The notes beneath the pieces are model-generated. The model did not search any database and was not told the DNA's origin. It was given only the letters and a program-made list of their open reading frames with translations. The position numbers and the translations under genes are program-made. DNA of 64,000 bases from Thermococcus sp. Its GTDB lineage: Archaea; Methanobacteriota_B; Thermococci; Thermococcales; Thermococcaceae. Of the stretch, positions 8,405 through 39,138 are shown one piece after another; within the stretch, counting starts at the first letter, position 1; each line of letters begins with the position of its first letter. The stretch lies in assembly GCF_027023865.1 (NCBI RefSeq), contig NZ_JALVUC010000022.1, forward strand, positions 1 through 64,000, read 5' to 3'.

Positions 8405-8890
8405 ATGACGGTTTTGCTCGTTACATCACCTCAGGGTCGAGAGGGGGATGTGATACTCGAACTTGAGTGGGCACTGGAGAAGGTTAAAGTCAAGGGGACT
8501 GACTGGAAGGGTGTTCTCCTCGCTGAGACCTCTCTTCCGAAGGAGGGGGCACTCAAAAGGCTCAAAAAATTCGAGACCCAAGCGATACAGCGGGTCGTTC
8601 CTCTCGATGAGTTCGTTCCAGCGAGATGGGAGGAGATAGAAGCGGCAGTTCTGAGGCTGGCCAAGGGAATTGACGGAACTTTCGCCGTCCGTGCCAGGGT
8701 CAGGGGCAACAAGACTTTGAAGGAGAGGGAGCTTGAGGTTAAACTCGGTTCTCTCATCGTGGAGAGTTATGACCTTGAGGTCAACCTCTCGGACCCGGAC
8801 TACACGGTGGTGGTTGAAGTTCTCGGGAAGAGGGCTGGAGTTGGACTCGTGGGGAGGGATGAGTCCCTGCGCTTCGAGGTGAAGGACTAA
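8405..8890 (+). CDS. THUMP domain-containing protein
   Basis: Small 161-residue protein whose C-terminal half (GTFAVRARVRGNK, LEVNLSDPDYTVVVEVLG) is a THUMP RNA-binding domain; the N-terminal part (VLLVTSPQGRE, KGVLLAETSLP) is the short alpha/beta region found before it in Tan1/THUMPD1-like proteins. These act as tRNA-binding adaptors for modification enzymes such as the cytidine acetyltransferase; that role here is inference. No methyltransferase domain is fused. It begins with ATG 8405 after GGTGAGC with almost no leader. Confidence 0.8.
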   Translation: MTVLLVTSPQGREGDVILELEWALEKVKVKGTDWKGVLLAETSLPKEGALKRLKKFETQAIQRVVPLDEFVPARWEEIEAAVLRLAKGIDGTFAVRARVRGNKTLKERELEVKLGSLIVESYDLEVNLSDPDYTVVVEVLGKRAGVGLVGRDESLRFEVKD

Positions 8891-32276: not shown

Positions 32277-32503
32277 GGATATCACCAAACTTGTTAATAT
32301 GTTAAAGCGCTTAAGTAGTTTTCCGATGTGACATTCGATATCTTCACTCAAAACCAAAAGTTAGTAGATTTCTCAAGGGTTGGTATTTTTGTTCTAAGAT
32401 TGGAGATTTCAGTGTTCGCCAGTGGCTCTTTGTATACATTCCTTATCCGGAACGGTGGCGTAATCTTTAAAAACCCATGAGGCTACCCCCGCCGGGTATT
32501 TCC
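32277..32503. promoter_or_regulatory. promoter region between the M20 peptidase and the riboswitch operon
   Basis: Gene-free. On the plus strand a TATA-like CTTTAAAAACC at 32465-32475 predicts a transcript starting near 32495-32500, immediately before the riboswitch aptamer. On the minus strand a T/A-rich CATATTAAC at about 32300 may serve the peptidase gene. No SurR-type GTTn3AAC motif was found here. Confidence 0.55.
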
Positions 32504-32551
32504 GGGCGAAGGCGTCCGCCCCAAATGCCCCCTGTGGGGATAATGACGCCT
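32504..32551 (+). ncRNA. fluoride riboswitch aptamer (crcB motif)
   Basis: The sequence folds exactly as the known fluoride aptamer. GGGCG (32504-32508) forms the pseudoknot with CGCCC (32517-32521); GCGTC (32512-32516) pairs with GACGC (32545-32549) as the main stem; CCCC (32529-32532) pairs with GGGG (32536-32539). Segment lengths match the Thermotoga petrophila aptamer one for one in the parts I compared: AAG for AUG after the first strand, and ATAAT for CUGAU before the closing stem, with the U for the long-range A-U pair at 32551. The changes are U to A in AUG and G to A in GAU. A possible expression platform follows: TCTCC (32554-32558) can pair with GGAGG (32565-32569), the ribosome site. 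Confidence 0.88.
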
Positions 32552-32577
32552 GTTCTCCACTCTAGGAGGTGACGCCC

Positions 32578-33537
32578 TTGAACCCGGAAGGAAGGATAGT
32601 TATAGGTTTAGTCCAGGTTATAGTCGTGCTCCTGCTCTCCCCCCTGATGGTGGGGATACTCAAGAAGGCTGAAGCTAGGATAGAGTCGCGGAAGGGAATA
32701 AGCATCTTCCAGCCCTACTACGACCTCGCAAAGTTCTTCAGGAAGGAAACCCTAATCCCCGAGAAAGCGGCTTCCTTCTTCGTGCTCGCTCCATTCATAG
32801 CGTTCGGAGCGATGCTCACACTGCCCTGGGTGTTACCCATCGTCGGCAACTTCCCCAGCTGGTTCGCCCCAACGGTGGACTTCTTCGGCGGGACGTTCCT
32901 CTTCGGCCTGGCCGCGATGGTCTCGATACTCGCGACTGAGAGAACTGGAAGTTACTACACCGGCATAGGGGCGACCAGAGCCGTTAACTTCGGCGCCTTC
33001 GCGGAGCCGGTTCTCATAATGGTCTTCTTTGGAGTGGCCATCCTCACGGGAACGAACAACCCGTTCCTGATGAACCACAGGATAACGGCAGGGGGATGGT
33101 ACCTTAGCCCGACGCACATACTCATAGCATCGGCCTTCTTCATGCTCCTGCTCTTTGACACAGGAAAACTGCCCATTGAATCGCATGGAAGCAACGAACT
33201 CGGAATGCTCGACCAGGGGAAGGGCCTCGAGTACACTGGCCCCCTCTACGCTCTCAGCACCTGGGCGGGCTACATGAAGTCCTTCATCCTCATGGCGGTG
33301 TTTCTCAATGTCTTCGCGGTTCCTTGGGGCCTGGCAACAAACGCTTCGCTCTACGAGGTTCTCAAGGGGACTCTCTGGCTGTTCGTCAAGATGCTCGGAC
33401 TCATAGGCGCGTTCGTGGTCGTTGAAGAAACCCTCGCAAAGATAAGGCTCTTCAGGATAATAGACTACCTCTCGGCCAGCTTTCTGCTGGCTATAATGGG
33501 TGTCATAAGCTTCCTCCTGGGGGGTGTTGTGCCTTGA
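32578..33537 (+). CDS. energy-converting-hydrogenase-related complex, NuoH/HyfC-like subunit
   Basis: 319-residue membrane protein with about eight helices, homologous to HycD/HyfC/NuoH. Conserved features are AEARIESRKGISIFQPYYDLAKFFRKE near 33-59 and the acidic loop IESHGSNELGMLDQGKGLEYTG near 198-219. Start TTG 32578 lies five bases after GGAGGTGA; GTG 32569 is within the ribosome site. First gene of a tightly packed six-gene operon controlled by the fluoride riboswitch just upstream. Confidence 0.9.
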   Translation: MNPEGRIVIGLVQVIVVLLLSPLMVGILKKAEARIESRKGISIFQPYYDLAKFFRKETLIPEKAASFFVLAPFIAFGAMLTLPWVLPIVGNFPSWFAPTVDFFGGTFLFGLAAMVSILATERTGSYYTGIGATRAVNFGAFAEPVLIMVFFGVAILTGTNNPFLMNHRITAGGWYLSPTHILIASAFFMLLLFDTGKLPIESHGSNELGMLDQGKGLEYTGPLYALSTWAGYMKSFILMAVFLNVFAVPWGLATNASLYEVLKGTLWLFVKMLGLIGAFVVVEETLAKIRLFRIIDYLSASFLLAIMGVISFLLGGVVP

Positions 33538-34160
33538 TTAGCGTTACAACTGAGGTCATAAACATCCTCGGAGTTACAGTGCTCCTGATAGCGTTCCTCC
33601 TGCTCACCGAATCGTATATGCACTCGCTGATAAACCTCATAGCCTTCCAGTCTCTCCTCATAGGAGGAATACTGGCCATCATCGGCTGGGAGAAGGCCAG
33701 TCCCGAACTCATCGTCCTGGCTGGGATTACCATAGCGTTTAGGGCGCTCCTGATACCCTGGATACTCCAGAGGGACATAATGAAGGAACACATCTGGCAC
33801 AACAGGGAGGTCAAGACAACCCACCACGCGATAGTCGTCGGCCTAATCCTAGCTGTGACCGCCTACTTCCTATACATCCCGATATACAGGGCAACTGGAG
33901 ACTGGAACGGGGTCATACCCTTCCTACTGCTCTTCCTCAGCATGCTCGTCATCGTCGGAAGGAGGAACGCCATGGCCCAGATAATCGGCTACATCAGCGA
34001 GGAGAACTCCCTGCTTTACTTCGCGGCAGTGATGACTTCAATGCCCATAATACTGGAGTTCGGAATCCTGCTCGACATGATAGCCTTCGTCCTGCTCGCG
34101 GTCATCCTCGGAGCCGAGAAGCGCTACGGGCCGGTTGAAGTTGAGGAGCTGGTGGGGTGA
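33534..34160 (+). CDS. energy-converting-hydrogenase-related complex, HyfE-like (NuoK-like) subunit
   Basis: 208-residue membrane protein with six to seven helices, homologous to HyfE. The N-terminal half contains membrane glutamates in LLTESYMHSLINL and EKASPELIVLAGI; the rest (REVKTTHHAIVVGLIL, EFGILLDMIAFVLL) is typical of HyfE. Start TTG 33534 overlaps the upstream stop (TTGA). Confidence 0.88.
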   Translation: MISVTTEVINILGVTVLLIAFLLLTESYMHSLINLIAFQSLLIGGILAIIGWEKASPELIVLAGITIAFRALLIPWILQRDIMKEHIWHNREVKTTHHAIVVGLILAVTAYFLYIPIYRATGDWNGVIPFLLLFLSMLVIVGRRNAMAQIIGYISEENSLLYFAAVMTSMPIILEFGILLDMIAFVLLAVILGAEKRYGPVEVEELVG

Positions 34161-34164
34161 TAAC

Positions 34165-35520
34165 ATGGAAGTGGTACTTTACCTCTTAATACTCCCTCTC
34201 ATAGCCTCGCTCCTCTCGTTAGCGGGCGAGAGGTGGGGGAAGGTTCTGACACCAGCCTTCGCCTTTGCAACAGCGGTCCTCTCGGCCCTGATGCTCTACC
34301 AGGGAAAGACCGTCTCAACGCCGAATCTCTACGCGGACTGGTACTCCCTCGTAATCGCGGGCATAGTCTCCTGGGTCTACTTCTTCGCCTCCCTGGCTTC
34401 TCTCTACTACACCGAGGGGCTTGAGAGGCCCTTCTTTGACCTCCGCTACTACTGGAGCTTCCTGTCGCTCTTCGCCCTCACCATGAGCTTCACCGCCCTG
34501 GTTTCCAACCTCGGCTGGATGTGGATAGGGCTTGAAGCGACCACCGTGGTGAGCGCACTCCTCATCCTCACGGAGGGAGAAAAGCGGAACGTCGAGGGGG
34601 CGTGGAGGTACATGATAGTAGCCTCCGCTGGACTCGGGGTGGCATTCCTCTCGGTTATCTTGGCCTACGTCTCTGCCGGAACCCTTGACGTGAGGCACTT
34701 AACGTTCACACCGAAGGAGGCCCTCCTGGTTTCCACCCTGGCTTTAATCGGCTTTGGAACGAAGGTAGGCCTCTTTCCGATGCACGGCTGGCTTCCAGAC
34801 GCCCACGGGAGCGCGCCATCGCCGGTAAGTGCAATGCTCTCCGGAACGCTCCTCCCAACGGCCCTGCTCGTCTACTACAGGATCCTCAGCGCATCCCCCT
34901 GGAATGCCCCGGCGGAGATAACGCTCCTCTTTGGAGTCCTCACGCTCCTCGTCGCTTCCTTCCTGATGGCGTCCCAGAGGTTCGTCAAGAGATTGCTCGC
35001 CTACTCAAGCATGGATATGATGGGTGTCGCTACAATAGGCCTTGGCTTGGCTTACTACCACCCCGTCCTGCTAAAGCTCGTCTTCCTCCTCCTGGCGGTT
35101 CACGCCTTCTCCAAGGGTGCCCTCTTCATAACCGCCGGGGGCGTCATGCGGGCCTATAGAACGCACGAAATAGGGGGGATAAGGGGCCTAATGAACTCGA
35201 ACCCCATGAGCGGCCTATCACTGGTCCTCTCCGCCCTGTCCGTTACTGGAAGCCCTCCTTTCGGGACGTTCATAGCGGAACTTGGAATAATAGGCGTTGC
35301 CCTGTCGAGGAGCTACTGGTGGGCGCTCTTCATAGGGACTGGCTTACTGCTGTCGTTCCTGGCTTTGAACTGGCACTCAGCTAAGATGGCCTTTGGAGAA
35401 GGAGAGAAGCGGAAGGTTCCCACGGGAGAGGGGATCATAGTGCTCACTATGACCTTAACCGCCCTTGGGATAAGCCTCTACGCGTGGTATCTTATCGTTA
35501 CGGGAGGTCTGGTAGTATGA
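34165..35520 (+). CDS. energy-converting-hydrogenase-related complex, HyfF/NuoN-like antiporter subunit
   Basis: 451-residue polytopic antiporter-type subunit with about 13 helices. Proton-path elements are present: Glu in GWMWIGLEATTVVSALL near 117-133, Lys/His in GFGTKVGLFPMHGWLPDAHGSAPS near 194-217, KRLLAYSSMDMMGV near 273-286 and a Lys in HAFSKGALF near 312-320. ATG 34165 follows GGTGAT. Likely an ion-translocating part of the complex. Confidence 0.9.
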   Translation: MEVVLYLLILPLIASLLSLAGERWGKVLTPAFAFATAVLSALMLYQGKTVSTPNLYADWYSLVIAGIVSWVYFFASLASLYYTEGLERPFFDLRYYWSFLSLFALTMSFTALVSNLGWMWIGLEATTVVSALLILTEGEKRNVEGAWRYMIVASAGLGVAFLSVILAYVSAGTLDVRHLTFTPKEALLVSTLALIGFGTKVGLFPMHGWLPDAHGSAPSPVSAMLSGTLLPTALLVYYRILSASPWNAPAEITLLFGVLTLLVASFLMASQRFVKRLLAYSSMDMMGVATIGLGLAYYHPVLLKLVFLLLAVHAFSKGALFITAGGVMRAYRTHEIGGIRGLMNSNPMSGLSLVLSALSVTGSPPFGTFIAELGIIGVALSRSYWWALFIGTGLLLSFLALNWHSAKMAFGEGEKRKVPTGEGIIVLTMTLTALGISLYAWYLIVTGGLVV

Positions 35521-36722
35521 AGGCTCTTTCCGCTGTGTTCAGGAAGGGCGGGAAGTATCTGACGGTCTGGCTCGACTACGAAAGCGGTGAGGCCGAGCTT
35601 GAGTTCACGGACTCGCTCCCGGGTAGGATGATAGCGCCTGCCCTCATCGGCGAGACCGAGCCTTACATGAGGATACCCCCGGGGACGAACGCGGTTCCGC
35701 TGACCTTTGGGCCGGCCGCGGGTGGCCTTGGTCAGGCCGGGGCCTTCGAGATACTAACCTACGGCGAGAGGATAGTGGCGATAAGGCCGGTCTACGGCTA
35801 CAAGGGACGCGGGCTGGAGAAGATGATGCTCGACCGTCCTATTGGGGAGTCGATAGCTGTCCTCGAGAGGGCAGCGGGGAACTTCGCAATGGCCTACACC
35901 TACGCCTTTCTGAAGGCGGTCGAGGCCAACCCTGACGAGGACGTCTGGGATGTTAGAAAGGCTCTCCTCGAACTTGAGAGGCTCTACAACCACTTCAACG
36001 CGATACACAAGTTAGCGGGAGCCGCATCCCAGAAGGTCGCCACCATGCACTTCCACGCCCTTGAGGAGGACGTCCTCAGGGTATTCAGCAGGCTGACCGG
36101 CCATCGCTATGGCTTCGGCTCAAACCTGCCTGGTGAGGTCAGGATTCTTGAACCGGAGGTCATTCAGAGACTTGGGAGGATTAAGGCGGAGTTCCGCTCG
36201 CTAACCGATGAACTGCTGGAGAGCAAGATATTCATAGACCGTCTCCACACGACCTGCAGACTCACGAGGGAAGATGTCATCGAACTTGATGCAGTGGGCA
36301 TAGCGGCTAGGGGGTCCTCCGTTCCTAGGGATGTCAGGGCTTTCGACAGGTTTTACTCCTACAAACCGGTAACCTACGAGGACGGAGACGCTCTGGCGAG
36401 GTTAATGGTCAGGATCGAGGAAGTGGAGAGGTCCTTCGAGATCATTGAAGGTTCGGACGTTAGAAGCGTCAGCTCCGACCCGTCCCTGAAGGACGGGCTG
36501 AACCTTGGATTAGCTGAAGCATCTCACGGGGACGTTCTAGTTCTCGCGGAGCTTGAGAACGAAAGGCTGAGGTGGATAGGCCTCAGGGGCGCTTCCCGCA
36601 TCAACTACATCGCCTTCGCAAAGGGAATAACCGGGAACATCTTCACGGACTTCCCGTTTGGCTTAGAGAGCTTTGGCCTGAACTTTGCCGATGCTGACCT
36701 TTGGCAGGGGGGTGAGGACTGA
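35517..36722 (+). CDS. energy-converting-hydrogenase-related large subunit lacking the Ni-Fe site
   Basis: 401-residue homolog of HycE/HyfG/NuoD without the NuoC-like N-terminal domain. The fold signature is clear (LTFGPAAGGLGQAGAFEI near 62-79, GYKGRGLEKMM near 94-104, a NuoD-like core). Where hydrogenases have CxxC, this protein has A120 and F123 (ERAAGNFAM) and, near the C-terminus, N389 and D392 (SFGLNFADAD). All four Ni-Fe cysteines are gone, so it cannot be a [NiFe] hydrogenase. It resembles the Ehr class between group 4 hydrogenases and complex I. Frame and overlaps are intact, so it is not a pseudogene. Its redox partner is unknown. Confidence 0.88.
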   Translation: MKALSAVFRKGGKYLTVWLDYESGEAELEFTDSLPGRMIAPALIGETEPYMRIPPGTNAVPLTFGPAAGGLGQAGAFEILTYGERIVAIRPVYGYKGRGLEKMMLDRPIGESIAVLERAAGNFAMAYTYAFLKAVEANPDEDVWDVRKALLELERLYNHFNAIHKLAGAASQKVATMHFHALEEDVLRVFSRLTGHRYGFGSNLPGEVRILEPEVIQRLGRIKAEFRSLTDELLESKIFIDRLHTTCRLTREDVIELDAVGIAARGSSVPRDVRAFDRFYSYKPVTYEDGDALARLMVRIEEVERSFEIIEGSDVRSVSSDPSLKDGLNLGLAEASHGDVLVLAELENERLRWIGLRGASRINYIAFAKGITGNIFTDFPFGLESFGLNFADADLWQGGED

Positions 36723-37327
36723 TGTGGATGATCAAAGGCCTTCGGAAGGGCGTCATAACGAGCGATTATCCAGGAAAGGTGAGTGAGGAAGAGCTTTCGC
36801 CGAGCTTTCCCCTAAAAGCCCCCGAGGAGTGTCCCTTCGGTGCCCTTGAAAACGGAAGCTTCGACCCCAAGAAGTGCATCTCCTGCCGTCTCTGCAATGC
36901 CCCCTTCGGAAGGAAGCTCGACGTTGATGAGGTTAAAAATCCCCTCAACTTCAGGCGCTCGCTCCATGTCCTCTTCCTTGACGTTGGAACCTGCCACGCC
37001 TGCAACCGCGAAGTCGCACAGCTTCACAGCCCATACTACGACGTCCACAGGCTCGGAATATTCTTCACGCCCACGCCGAAGCACGCTGATGTTCTCCTCG
37101 TCGCGGGCTGTCCGACCGACGGTATGATACCAGTTCTAAAGGAGGCCTACGAGCTGATGCCTGAACCGAAGCGCGTCCTCGTCCTCGGCGCCTGCTCCAA
37201 CGGTGCCTTCTGCGGGAGAAAGGTCGAGGATTTTGTCCCGGTGGATGGCTATGTGGCGGGCTGTCCGCCGAACCCGGTTCAGATAATCCGGGGCCTCCTT
37301 AAGATGGCCGGGAGGGATGTGGAATGA
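36722..37327 (+). CDS. energy-converting-hydrogenase-related small subunit with N-terminal Fe-S motif
   Basis: 201-residue NuoB/HycG homolog. N2-type cluster ligands are C91 and C94 (TCHACNRE), C158 (GACSNG) and C181 (AGCPPNP). Before them lies a separate cysteine set, C37 (ECPFGAL) and C52/C55/C58 (KCISCRLC), which would hold one extra [4Fe-4S] cluster and may replace the missing polyferredoxin subunit. Start ATG 36722 overlaps the upstream TGA. It shows that the complex still moves single electrons. Confidence 0.88.
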   Translation: MWMIKGLRKGVITSDYPGKVSEEELSPSFPLKAPEECPFGALENGSFDPKKCISCRLCNAPFGRKLDVDEVKNPLNFRRSLHVLFLDVGTCHACNREVAQLHSPYYDVHRLGIFFTPTPKHADVLLVAGCPTDGMIPVLKEAYELMPEPKRVLVLGACSNGAFCGRKVEDFVPVDGYVAGCPPNPVQIIRGLLKMAGRDVE

Positions 37328-39138
37328 ACCCCTACTATCTGATAACCTTGGGTTTCGCCCTGGCATCACTCGTCTCACCAGCATCGAGGAAGCTCACCTA
37401 CTGGCTCAACGTGGCCCTATCATCGGCCCTGCTCTACTTCCTCCTCTTCCAGCCCGGGAGCATAGGTGGAACAGACAGGTACTTCATGCTGATCTCGGGA
37501 ATAGTCTGGCTGACCGCTTCACTCTTCAGCCTGGACTACGACCACTATCCAAAACTCCTGGCCGGCTCTTTCTCGCTCGCCATAGCGGGCATGATGGTTA
37601 TCCTACTCGCCAAAGACGCGGTTACCTTCCTCGTCGGCTGGGAGGTAATGACGGTAGCGAGCTACCTCGGCATAACCGCGAAGGAGAGGGAGGGAAGAGG
37701 TGCTTACAGCTTCCTTGCCTTCGGTGAGCTTAGTGCGCTCTTGATCTTAGCTGGTTTCGGCCTGCTAACCATCCAAAACGGTTCGGTGGACTTTTCAGCC
37801 TGGAAAGCCTCACCGGCCTGGAACGTCGCCTTCTTCTTGGCAGCCCTCGGCTTCTCGGTCAAGATGGCAATCTTTCCCTTCCACATCTGGCTTCCGCAGG
37901 CCCACGGTAAAGCCCCAGCCAACCTCTCCGCCCAGCTTAGCGCCGTCCTCACTCTGATGGGCCTCTACGGGATGGTTAGGCTCCTCCTTATTGCAAGGCC
38001 AGCTGACTGGATCGGTGCCTTCTTCCTCCTCTTTGGAGGTTTGACCGCGATCCTCGGTGCGGCCTACGCGGCCGGAACCGAGTACGTCAAGAGACTGCCC
38101 GGATACAGCACGGTTGAGAACGACGGCGTTTTACTGGCCCTCTTTGGCGGGACGGTGATCACCCTGAACCACGGCAACGTTGATTTGGCCTCGTTCACGT
38201 TCTTAGCTCTGCTCTTCTTTGCCTTCGCCCACAGCGTATCAAAGGGCCTGCTCTTCCTTGTGGCAGGGAGGCTGGAGAACGGCACCGGGAGGTTCCCCGA
38301 GGTCGTCCACGGCAGACTCTCACTCCTTGGCGTCATAGCCGGCTACGCCTCGGCGTTAAGCCTCGCTGGGATTCCCCCATTCCCGGGATTCCTCGGTGAG
38401 TGGCTCGGTATAGAGAGCCTCCTCCAGAGCTTCAAGATACCCGACCCTGGACTCAAGGTTCTCATGATGCTCGTGGGTTCACTCGTGGCTTTGACGGCTG
38501 GAATAGCCGGGGTTGCGATGAGCAAGATAATAACGCAGGGGGCCCAGAGGGCGGGAGGAAAGAATGGTTATTCAGTGGAGGATATCGGCTATGCCTTCTC
38601 CGTGGCGGTCCTCTTTACGGTCGGTATTGTACCGGGGCTTCTCTTCCGCCTCATAAACGCCCCAATGGAAGCTTTAACAGGTCAGAAGGCGACTGACTTC
38701 CTCGGCGGTGTGCTCGGAATAAAGGAGGGCTTCCTCGTCGTTGCAAAGGGTTTTGGGGGAATCTCCCCGACCTACCTGGCCCTCCTGGTCTTTATCTTCG
38801 CGGTGGGCACGTACATCGTTCTAAAACCTTTCACAAAGCTGAAGGCAAGGCGCGTCAGGGCGTGGAGCGGCGGACTTACCAATCCAGAATACCCACCGAT
38901 AGCGCACTCGACCATACTGCTCGTCACTGAAGGCTGGCTCTACGGGACGATGGAGGAGAAAGGCCGCCTCCACTGGCGTGAGAAGGTGAGCACAGCATAT
39001 AGTAGGCTTGCTGATGGTTACCTGGCCTTTTCCGAGTGGTTCAGACACGGGGTCATGAGGGGCTCCGACAGCGTTTACGTCGCCTATATCCTCCTAACGT
39101 TAATAGCCGGGCTTGTTTACCTTCTTTACGCCCTTTGA
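37324..39138 (+). CDS. energy-converting-hydrogenase-related complex, HyfB/NuoL-like subunit
   Basis: 604-residue polytopic protein, the second antiporter-like subunit of the complex. Conserved elements are Glu in FLVGWEVMTVASYLG near 100-114, Lys/His in GFSVKMAIFPFHIWLPQAHGKAP near 178-200, and HSVSKGLLFLVAGRLENG near 303-320. A hydrophilic stretch near 500-570 precedes the last helix. ATG 37324 overlaps the upstream stop. Last gene of the operon; U-rich DNA follows. Confidence 0.9.
   Translation: MNPYYLITLGFALASLVSPASRKLTYWLNVALSSALLYFLLFQPGSIGGTDRYFMLISGIVWLTASLFSLDYDHYPKLLAGSFSLAIAGMMVILLAKDAVTFLVGWEVMTVASYLGITAKEREGRGAYSFLAFGELSALLILAGFGLLTIQNGSVDFSAWKASPAWNVAFFLAALGFSVKMAIFPFHIWLPQAHGKAPANLSAQLSAVLTLMGLYGMVRLLLIARPADWIGAFFLLFGGLTAILGAAYAAGTEYVKRLPGYSTVENDGVLLALFGGTVITLNHGNVDLASFTFLALLFFAFAHSVSKGLLFLVAGRLENGTGRFPEVVHGRLSLLGVIAGYASALSLAGIPPFPGFLGEWLGIESLLQSFKIPDPGLKVLMMLVGSLVALTAGIAGVAMSKIITQGAQRAGGKNGYSVEDIGYAFSVAVLFTVGIVPGLLFRLINAPMEALTGQKATDFLGGVLGIKEGFLVVAKGFGGISPTYLALLVFIFAVGTYIVLKPFTKLKARRVRAWSGGLTNPEYPPIAHSTILLVTEGWLYGTMEEKGRLHWREKVSTAYSRLADGYLAFSEWFRHGVMRGSDSVYVAYILLTLIAGLVYLLYAL

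Follow-up and report, generated by a model that had tools for sequence, protein, structure and literature searches.

Why does a fluoride riboswitch stand before genes for a hydrogenase-like membrane complex in a hyperthermophilic archaeon? The locus in question, an aptamer followed by a six-gene operon, lies in a 64,000-nucleotide stretch of Thermococcus sp. (the window: assembly GCF_027023865.1, contig NZ_JALVUC010000022.1, positions 1 to 64,000, forward strand). A first-pass annotation, made from the letters alone, had proposed that the riboswitch heads a Ni-Fe-less energy-converting complex. Judged by its sequence, the complex is a HyfBCEFGI-type Ehr complex that lacks the nickel ligands and is not a formate hydrogenlyase, and we predict from its leader that it is induced by fluoride. 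With moderate confidence, we propose as the whole explanation that the aptamer switches on an Ehr complex that restores pH and membrane potential under fluoride.

What is the complex? The operon (32578-39138) consists of six genes, as the first-pass annotation had described; they stand in the order C-E-F-G-I-B and overlap or abut:

32578..33537, plus strand: C subunit, NuoH/HyfC-like, 319 amino acids, TTG start (PF00146, 2.3e-32)
33534..34160, plus strand: E subunit, HyfE-like, 208 amino acids (NF008556 hydrogenase 4 membrane subunit, 1e-11, below cut-off)
34165..35520, plus strand: F subunit, HyfF-like antiporter-type, 451 amino acids (PF00361, 1.9e-43)
35517..36722, plus strand: G subunit, HycE/NuoD-like large subunit without nickel ligands, 401 amino acids (PF00346, 3.8e-16)
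36722..37327, plus strand: I subunit, NuoB/HyfI-like small subunit with an N-terminal Cys-rich stretch, 201 amino acids, 10 Cys (PF01058, 2e-18)
37324..39138, plus strand: B subunit, HyfB-like antiporter-type, 604 amino acids (PF00361, 1.7e-26; NF005046, 460 bits, at cut-off)

The closest solved relatives of G are formate hydrogenlyase subunit 5 and the alpha subunit of a membrane-bound hydrogenase. The G subunit contains a single Cys, and both CxxC motifs are replaced: ERAAGNF and SFGLNFADADLW occupy the places of DRVCGIC and DPCYSC in E. coli Hyf. All four nickel-binding Cys that mark the large subunit of a [NiFe] group 4 hydrogenase are therefore missing, in agreement with the Ni-Fe-less complex proposed earlier, and we rejected formate hydrogenlyase as the identity on this ground. 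Ehr complexes have been described as lacking CxxC, with unknown function (PMC4378227, PMC10284858), and the operon has the features of that family: group-4-hydrogenase/complex I-like subunits of which two are antiporter-type, no CxxC and a placement among nickel-less complexes. Respiratory complex I does not fit, as no NuoE/F/G-like gene of an NADH-oxidising module is found in 32578-39138. Could the complex nonetheless be a hydrogenase or formate hydrogenlyase serving H2 or formate metabolism, with fluoride regulation a coincidence? Its subunits match hydrogenase-4/formate hydrogenlyase families, and published lists name such genes formate hydrogen lyase (PMC2864571, PMC11139923). However, none of the fluoride-type complexes examined has either CxxC motif, and the operon has no formate dehydrogenase gene (a tRNA and a malic enzyme follow the six genes), which makes this explanation hardly credible.

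The other subunits keep their functional residues. The four N2-type Cys are retained in I, the membrane Glu in C, and the TM5 Glu and the TM7 and TM8 Lys (TM, transmembrane helix) in both antiporter-type subunits, as E107/K180/K307 in B and E125/K201/K318 in F (numbering from 34162). Thus, electron-driven ion pumping would be possible. None of the six proteins carries a CrcB/Fluc or CLC-F exporter domain, again as noted in the first pass. An IS605 OrfB/TnpB-type gene (PF01385, PF07282; 42248-43546, minus strand) follows some 3 kb past the end of the operon.

Is the element before gene C a genuine fluoride aptamer? The leader contains the following features:

32466..32473, plus strand: TATA-like box TTTAAAAA, read in the sequence by archaeal promoter rules; transcription start expected near 32495-32500
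32496..32559, plus strand: fluoride riboswitch aptamer RF01734 (Infernal 32.5 bits, model positions 1-64, complete)
32500..32516, plus strand: anti-ribosome-binding-site strand TTCCGGGCGAAGGCGTC, which could form a duplex with 32571-32576 and 32583-32589
32504..32521, plus strand: P1 stem, GGGCG (32504-32508) with CGCCC (32517-32521), invariant and paired in 12/12 leaders
32511..32550, plus strand: pseudoknot strands GGCGTC (32511-32516) and GACGCC (32545-32550), invariant and paired in 12/12
32565..32572, plus strand: Shine-Dalgarno sequence GGAGGTGA, conserved in 12/12
32571..32576, plus strand: second GACGCC copy between Shine-Dalgarno sequence and start, conserved in 12/12 though non-coding; competitor of the pseudoknot strand

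The window copy is a full-length, significant covariance match with P1, P3 and the pseudoknot, and its E-value is 1.5e-7 in the 64-kb stretch and 2.6e-7 in the whole genome, where it is the best RF01734 match. The near-complete aptamer of the first-pass annotation is thus complete; its 27-base distance from the first gene is borne out by a core that ends at about 32551 and a TTG start at 32578, and its position close to the transcript start fits the TTTAAAAA box. A chance match was ruled out by the E-values and by the presence of the element in 12/12 orthologous leaders. A second match in the genome (C19:220658-220730, E 6.5e-6 in the whole-genome scan) heads a cluster in which a prenyltransferase-like gene comes first and CrcB (C19:223159-223494) and DUF190 genes further along; all remaining matches have E>0.5 and were treated as noise. 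A protein of prenyltransferase fold (PF00432; L052:4096-4959), not CrcB, likewise opens an aptamer-led CrcB cluster of Thermococcus.

The aptamer and the complex are conserved together. At least one fluoride aptamer occurs in 76 of the 81 Thermococcaceae genomes surveyed, and nine carry a second full-length copy that lies directly before gene C in every case. Second aptamers of four further genomes (G009, G035, G034 and G066; E 0.002-0.009) adjoin no complex and were left out of this count. The nine genomes with a second copy before gene C include all seven that have a close G subunit (at least 78% identity); in the remaining two, the operon runs off the end of its contig. Three additional metagenome-assembled genomes bring the leaders to 12, and orthologous leaders score 40-56 bits (up to 56.5), with the motif TTTAAAA at roughly equal distance in 12/12. 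In several Thermococcus relatives the operon adjoins a valS-like gene. The flanks of the operon in the window match those of no relative; the operon thus occupies another place in the genome here, but has retained its leader.

How might the leader act on gene C? The longest open reading frame begins at GTG 32569, which we rejected as the start: in all 12 orthologues codon 4 of that frame is TTG or GTG and stands behind a perfect Shine-Dalgarno sequence, so gene C starts at 32578, with TTG or GTG as start codon throughout. The 5' half of the aptamer, UUCCGGGCGANGGCGUC, is able to pair with GACGCC and CCCGGAA (codons 2-4), enclosing the start codon. This anti-ribosome-binding-site duplex, which excludes P1 and the pseudoknot, is predicted in all 12 leaders at -22.4 to -26.3 kcal/mol. 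No other gene window matched it in 10 of the 12 sequences; in the remaining two, 5 of 293 windows were as good. In ensemble folding of five leaders, a pseudoknot constraint opened up the otherwise closed region behind the Shine-Dalgarno sequence, clearly in most of the five and weakly in one. From these folding models, the leader is predicted to be a translational ON switch, in agreement with a reported archaeal translational fluoride riboswitch cited in PMC11077080. In many crcB-operon leaders of Thermococcaceae (L002:1501-1640, L011-L039), pairing is possible between the 3' end of the aptamer, GCCUGUUCUAC, and GUAGAAUGGGC, which surrounds the AUG; there, aptamer GCUUCGAGCCC is complementary to GGGCUCGAAGC at the gene start, a second and different start-masking design.

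Does the association extend beyond archaea? Distant relatives of G are present on plasmids, and the order C-E-F-G-I-B recurs on plasmids of Burkholderia multivorans, B. cenocepacia, Caballeronia SBC1 and Mycobacterium branderi. In Burkholderia and Caballeronia, RF01734 immediately precedes gene C; in M. branderi, C is preceded by a NUDIX gene and the aptamer lies before that. Annotated neighbours in Burkholderia and M. branderi include MutS, inorganic diphosphatase, HAD, DUF190, CrcB, a chloride-channel-type gene, enolase and Usp. Among 20 Acidobacteriota loci, the aptamer precedes C in each of the four ordered C-E-F-G-I-B, one of which adjoins enolase and Usp. The remaining 16, of which 15 are B-first and one is truncated at a contig edge, have no aptamer on their contigs at E<=1e-4. 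Likewise, B-first complexes of Rhizobium, Cupriavidus, Variovorax, Azospirillum, Rhodococcus and Allomeiothermus have no aptamer above cut-off within ~19 kb. A scan of genome contigs for relatives of the complex returned Thermococcus and one Ni-containing Acidobacteriales complex only, and phage records yielded no informative relatives.

We placed the complexes in a tree of six concatenated subunits rooted on E. coli Hyf and Hyc; the maximum-likelihood tree (IQ-TREE) was computed without support values, which come from FastTree, and the sample did not include the reference EhrL of Geobacter and Mycobacterium tuberculosis. A single branch of the maximum-likelihood tree separates all aptamer-linked complexes (FastTree support 1.000). 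In the rooted tree they form a clade of Acidobacteriota, Burkholderiaceae, M. branderi and Thermococcus (local support 1.00), nested within the nickel-less complexes; the Cys-bearing Acidobacteriota complexes L148, L154 and L156, which keep both CxxC, fall outside the nickel-less group. Long branches lead to the bacterial and the archaeal members and reveal neither when nor in which direction transfer took place.

Some members of the family depart from the usual residues. The I subunits on the M. branderi plasmid (L097:10024-10818) and on an Allomeiothermus silvanus plasmid (L109:10248-11129) lack the N2-type Cys (CNGC, GxC and GCPP are changed); all four are lost in M. branderi, and the aligned part of the Allomeiothermus subunit has no Cys at all. 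Both operons are otherwise complete. Thus, the M. branderi complex, which is fluoride-type, and the Allomeiothermus complex, which is not, apparently represent redox-dead Ehr. The TM5 Glu is replaced by Arg in B and by Ala in F in Acidobacteriota L151, L153 and L161, and is Glu in the other Ehr aligned. On a plasmid of Alicyclobacillus sp. ALC3, a lone G-like large subunit (L108:8938-10434) has its own aptamer (8732-8792) in an island of six aptamers, CrcB genes and DUF190; the plasmid annotation lists none of the other subunits.

What could such a complex do under fluoride? We propose that fluoride, entering as HF, is bound by the 5'-terminal aptamer of the mRNA. In the absence of fluoride, UUCCGGG and GGCGUC would pair with CCCGGAA (codons 2-4) and GACGCC, and the TTG start would be caged; with fluoride, P1 and the pseudoknot would form, releasing the start and turning translation on. 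The product would be a nickel-free, energy-converting Ehr membrane complex from a clade devoted to fluoride conditions. It would most likely couple electron flow through the clusters of I, probably from ferredoxin, or ion exchange, to the passage of H+ or Na+ across B, F, C and E. This would restore the membrane potential and the pH of the cytoplasm and so support passive export of fluoride by CrcB/Fluc, which is encoded elsewhere in the genome. Incoming HF makes the cell interior more acidic and reduces the proton-motive force; exporters apart, no class is linked to the riboswitch more often than Na+/H+ antiporters (PMC11139923). The best-supported inference is thus a complex that restores pH and potential and thereby sustains passive export through Fluc, and its most likely role would be to restore ion gradients and pH upon HF entry; ion gradients had already been suggested in the first pass.

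Two other functions would fit the same regulation. When fluoride blocks enolase and pyrophosphatase, the complex might instead dispose of reduced ferredoxin, or recover energy from it, through an unnamed acceptor, with ion gradients secondary. The N2-type and N-terminal Cys of I retained in Thermococcus, the enolase and pyrophosphatase genes beside the bacterial complexes, and a review that treats the link to "formate hydrogen lyase" as part of metabolic acclimation (PMC11139923) all agree with such a safety valve; yet the complex has no recognisable acceptor site now that the Ni ligands are gone, its operon contains no dedicated electron-donor gene, and the M. branderi member has lost every N2 cysteine. 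We regard this function as unlikely, though deserving serious thought. Alternatively, the antiporter-type subunits could themselves transport fluoride, by F-/HF export or F-/H+ exchange; fluoride removal had also been raised in the first pass. A clade dedicated to fluoride and the Arg and Ala at TM5 in three Acidobacteriota would suit this idea; however, Thermococcus retains the usual proton-pump residues, its genome already has an aptamer-led CrcB, and we found no likeness to Fluc or CLC-F. Direct transport is therefore improbable.

Several observations weigh against restoration of pH and potential by a fluoride-switched complex. The window aptamer scores 32.5 bits, under the Rfam gathering cut-off of 34 for RF01734; a default Rfam scan therefore does not report it and returned a tRNA as sole match. 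In the covariance check suggested in the first pass, the score is thus below cut-off, yet the match is significant, with an E-value of 1.5e-7, and orthologues reach 40-56 bits. The low score is accompanied by a P3 G/A mismatch and by A for the usual U after GGCGA (GAAGG vs GAUGG; position 32510). Most copies have U at this position, as does every crcB-operon aptamer viewed, so ligand affinity may be reduced in the window copy. Has this aptamer degenerated, with the fluoride response lost in the window genome? The score and GAAGG point that way, but A stands at this position in 7 of the 12 leaders of the complex operon, A and U both occur among close relatives, and the core is otherwise invariant across the 12 sequences while the flanking bases vary; we judge such a loss very improbable. 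As for the switch, P1 and the pseudoknot do not vary in the 12 leaders, so covariation speaks neither for nor against them, and at growth temperatures of around 80 C the folding energies hold only approximately. Finally, residues with a pumping role are gone in M. branderi (N2 Cys) and in the three Acidobacteriota (TM5 Glu), and standard redox pumping is thus impossible for some members. Together with the lone aptamer-led G of Alicyclobacillus, these losses hint that fluoride-type Ehr could be a dedicated fluoride-defence machine independent of redox chemistry, some members carrying a different ion, possibly F-; we consider this doubtful.

If our preferred explanation holds, in which Ehr restores pH and potential, membrane energetics would join exporters and enzyme replacement in fluoride resistance. 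The fluoride link, and the neighbouring fluoride-defence genes in unrelated bacteria, give Ehr-type complexes a testable role, and a clade that keeps its riboswitch from hyperthermophilic archaea to soil bacteria supplies a condition under which Ehr can be expressed, knocked out and assayed. A published label is also corrected, since the "formate hydrogenlyase" tied to fluoride riboswitches is no hydrogenase in all cases examined.

How does this system compare with those already known? The first-pass annotation had named it as its main candidate for an undescribed system, and "undescribed" holds only in part. Formate hydrogen lyase genes were listed behind the crcB motif by Weinberg in 2010 (PMC2864571), a 2024 review citing Baker 2012 counts them among the commonest riboswitch-associated enzymes (PMC11139923), and the Ehr family, of which the complex is a member, was already known. 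What appears new is that the linked complex is a nickel-free clade common to archaea and bacteria; no paper joining Ehr and the fluoride riboswitch was found in the limited literature searched, and our claim to novelty is bounded accordingly. Like other Ehr, the complex has a HyfBCEFGI-like subunit set with a Ni-less large subunit and antiporter-type subunits. Unlike them, it has the order C-E-F-G-I-B rather than B-first, an aptamer before the operon, a Cys-rich N-terminus on the small subunit and a separate clade. E. coli Hyc/Hyf offers Hyf homologues for all six subunits, whereas here the Ni-Fe site, formate dehydrogenase, separate HycB/HycF proteins and maturation genes are missing from the operon. 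With fluoride riboswitch-controlled resistance genes the locus shares the aptamer class and the published association with "formate hydrogen lyase" genes (PMC2864571, PMC11139923); it differs in its Ni-free Ehr, its occurrence in Thermococcus and a leader predicted to act on translation. The crcB-operon riboswitch of Thermococcales, which occurs in almost every Thermococcaceae genome surveyed and whose transcript has been observed in T. kodakarensis (PMC4247193), is of the same aptamer class but has a longer aptamer insert, a different operon and a different predicted start-masking helix.

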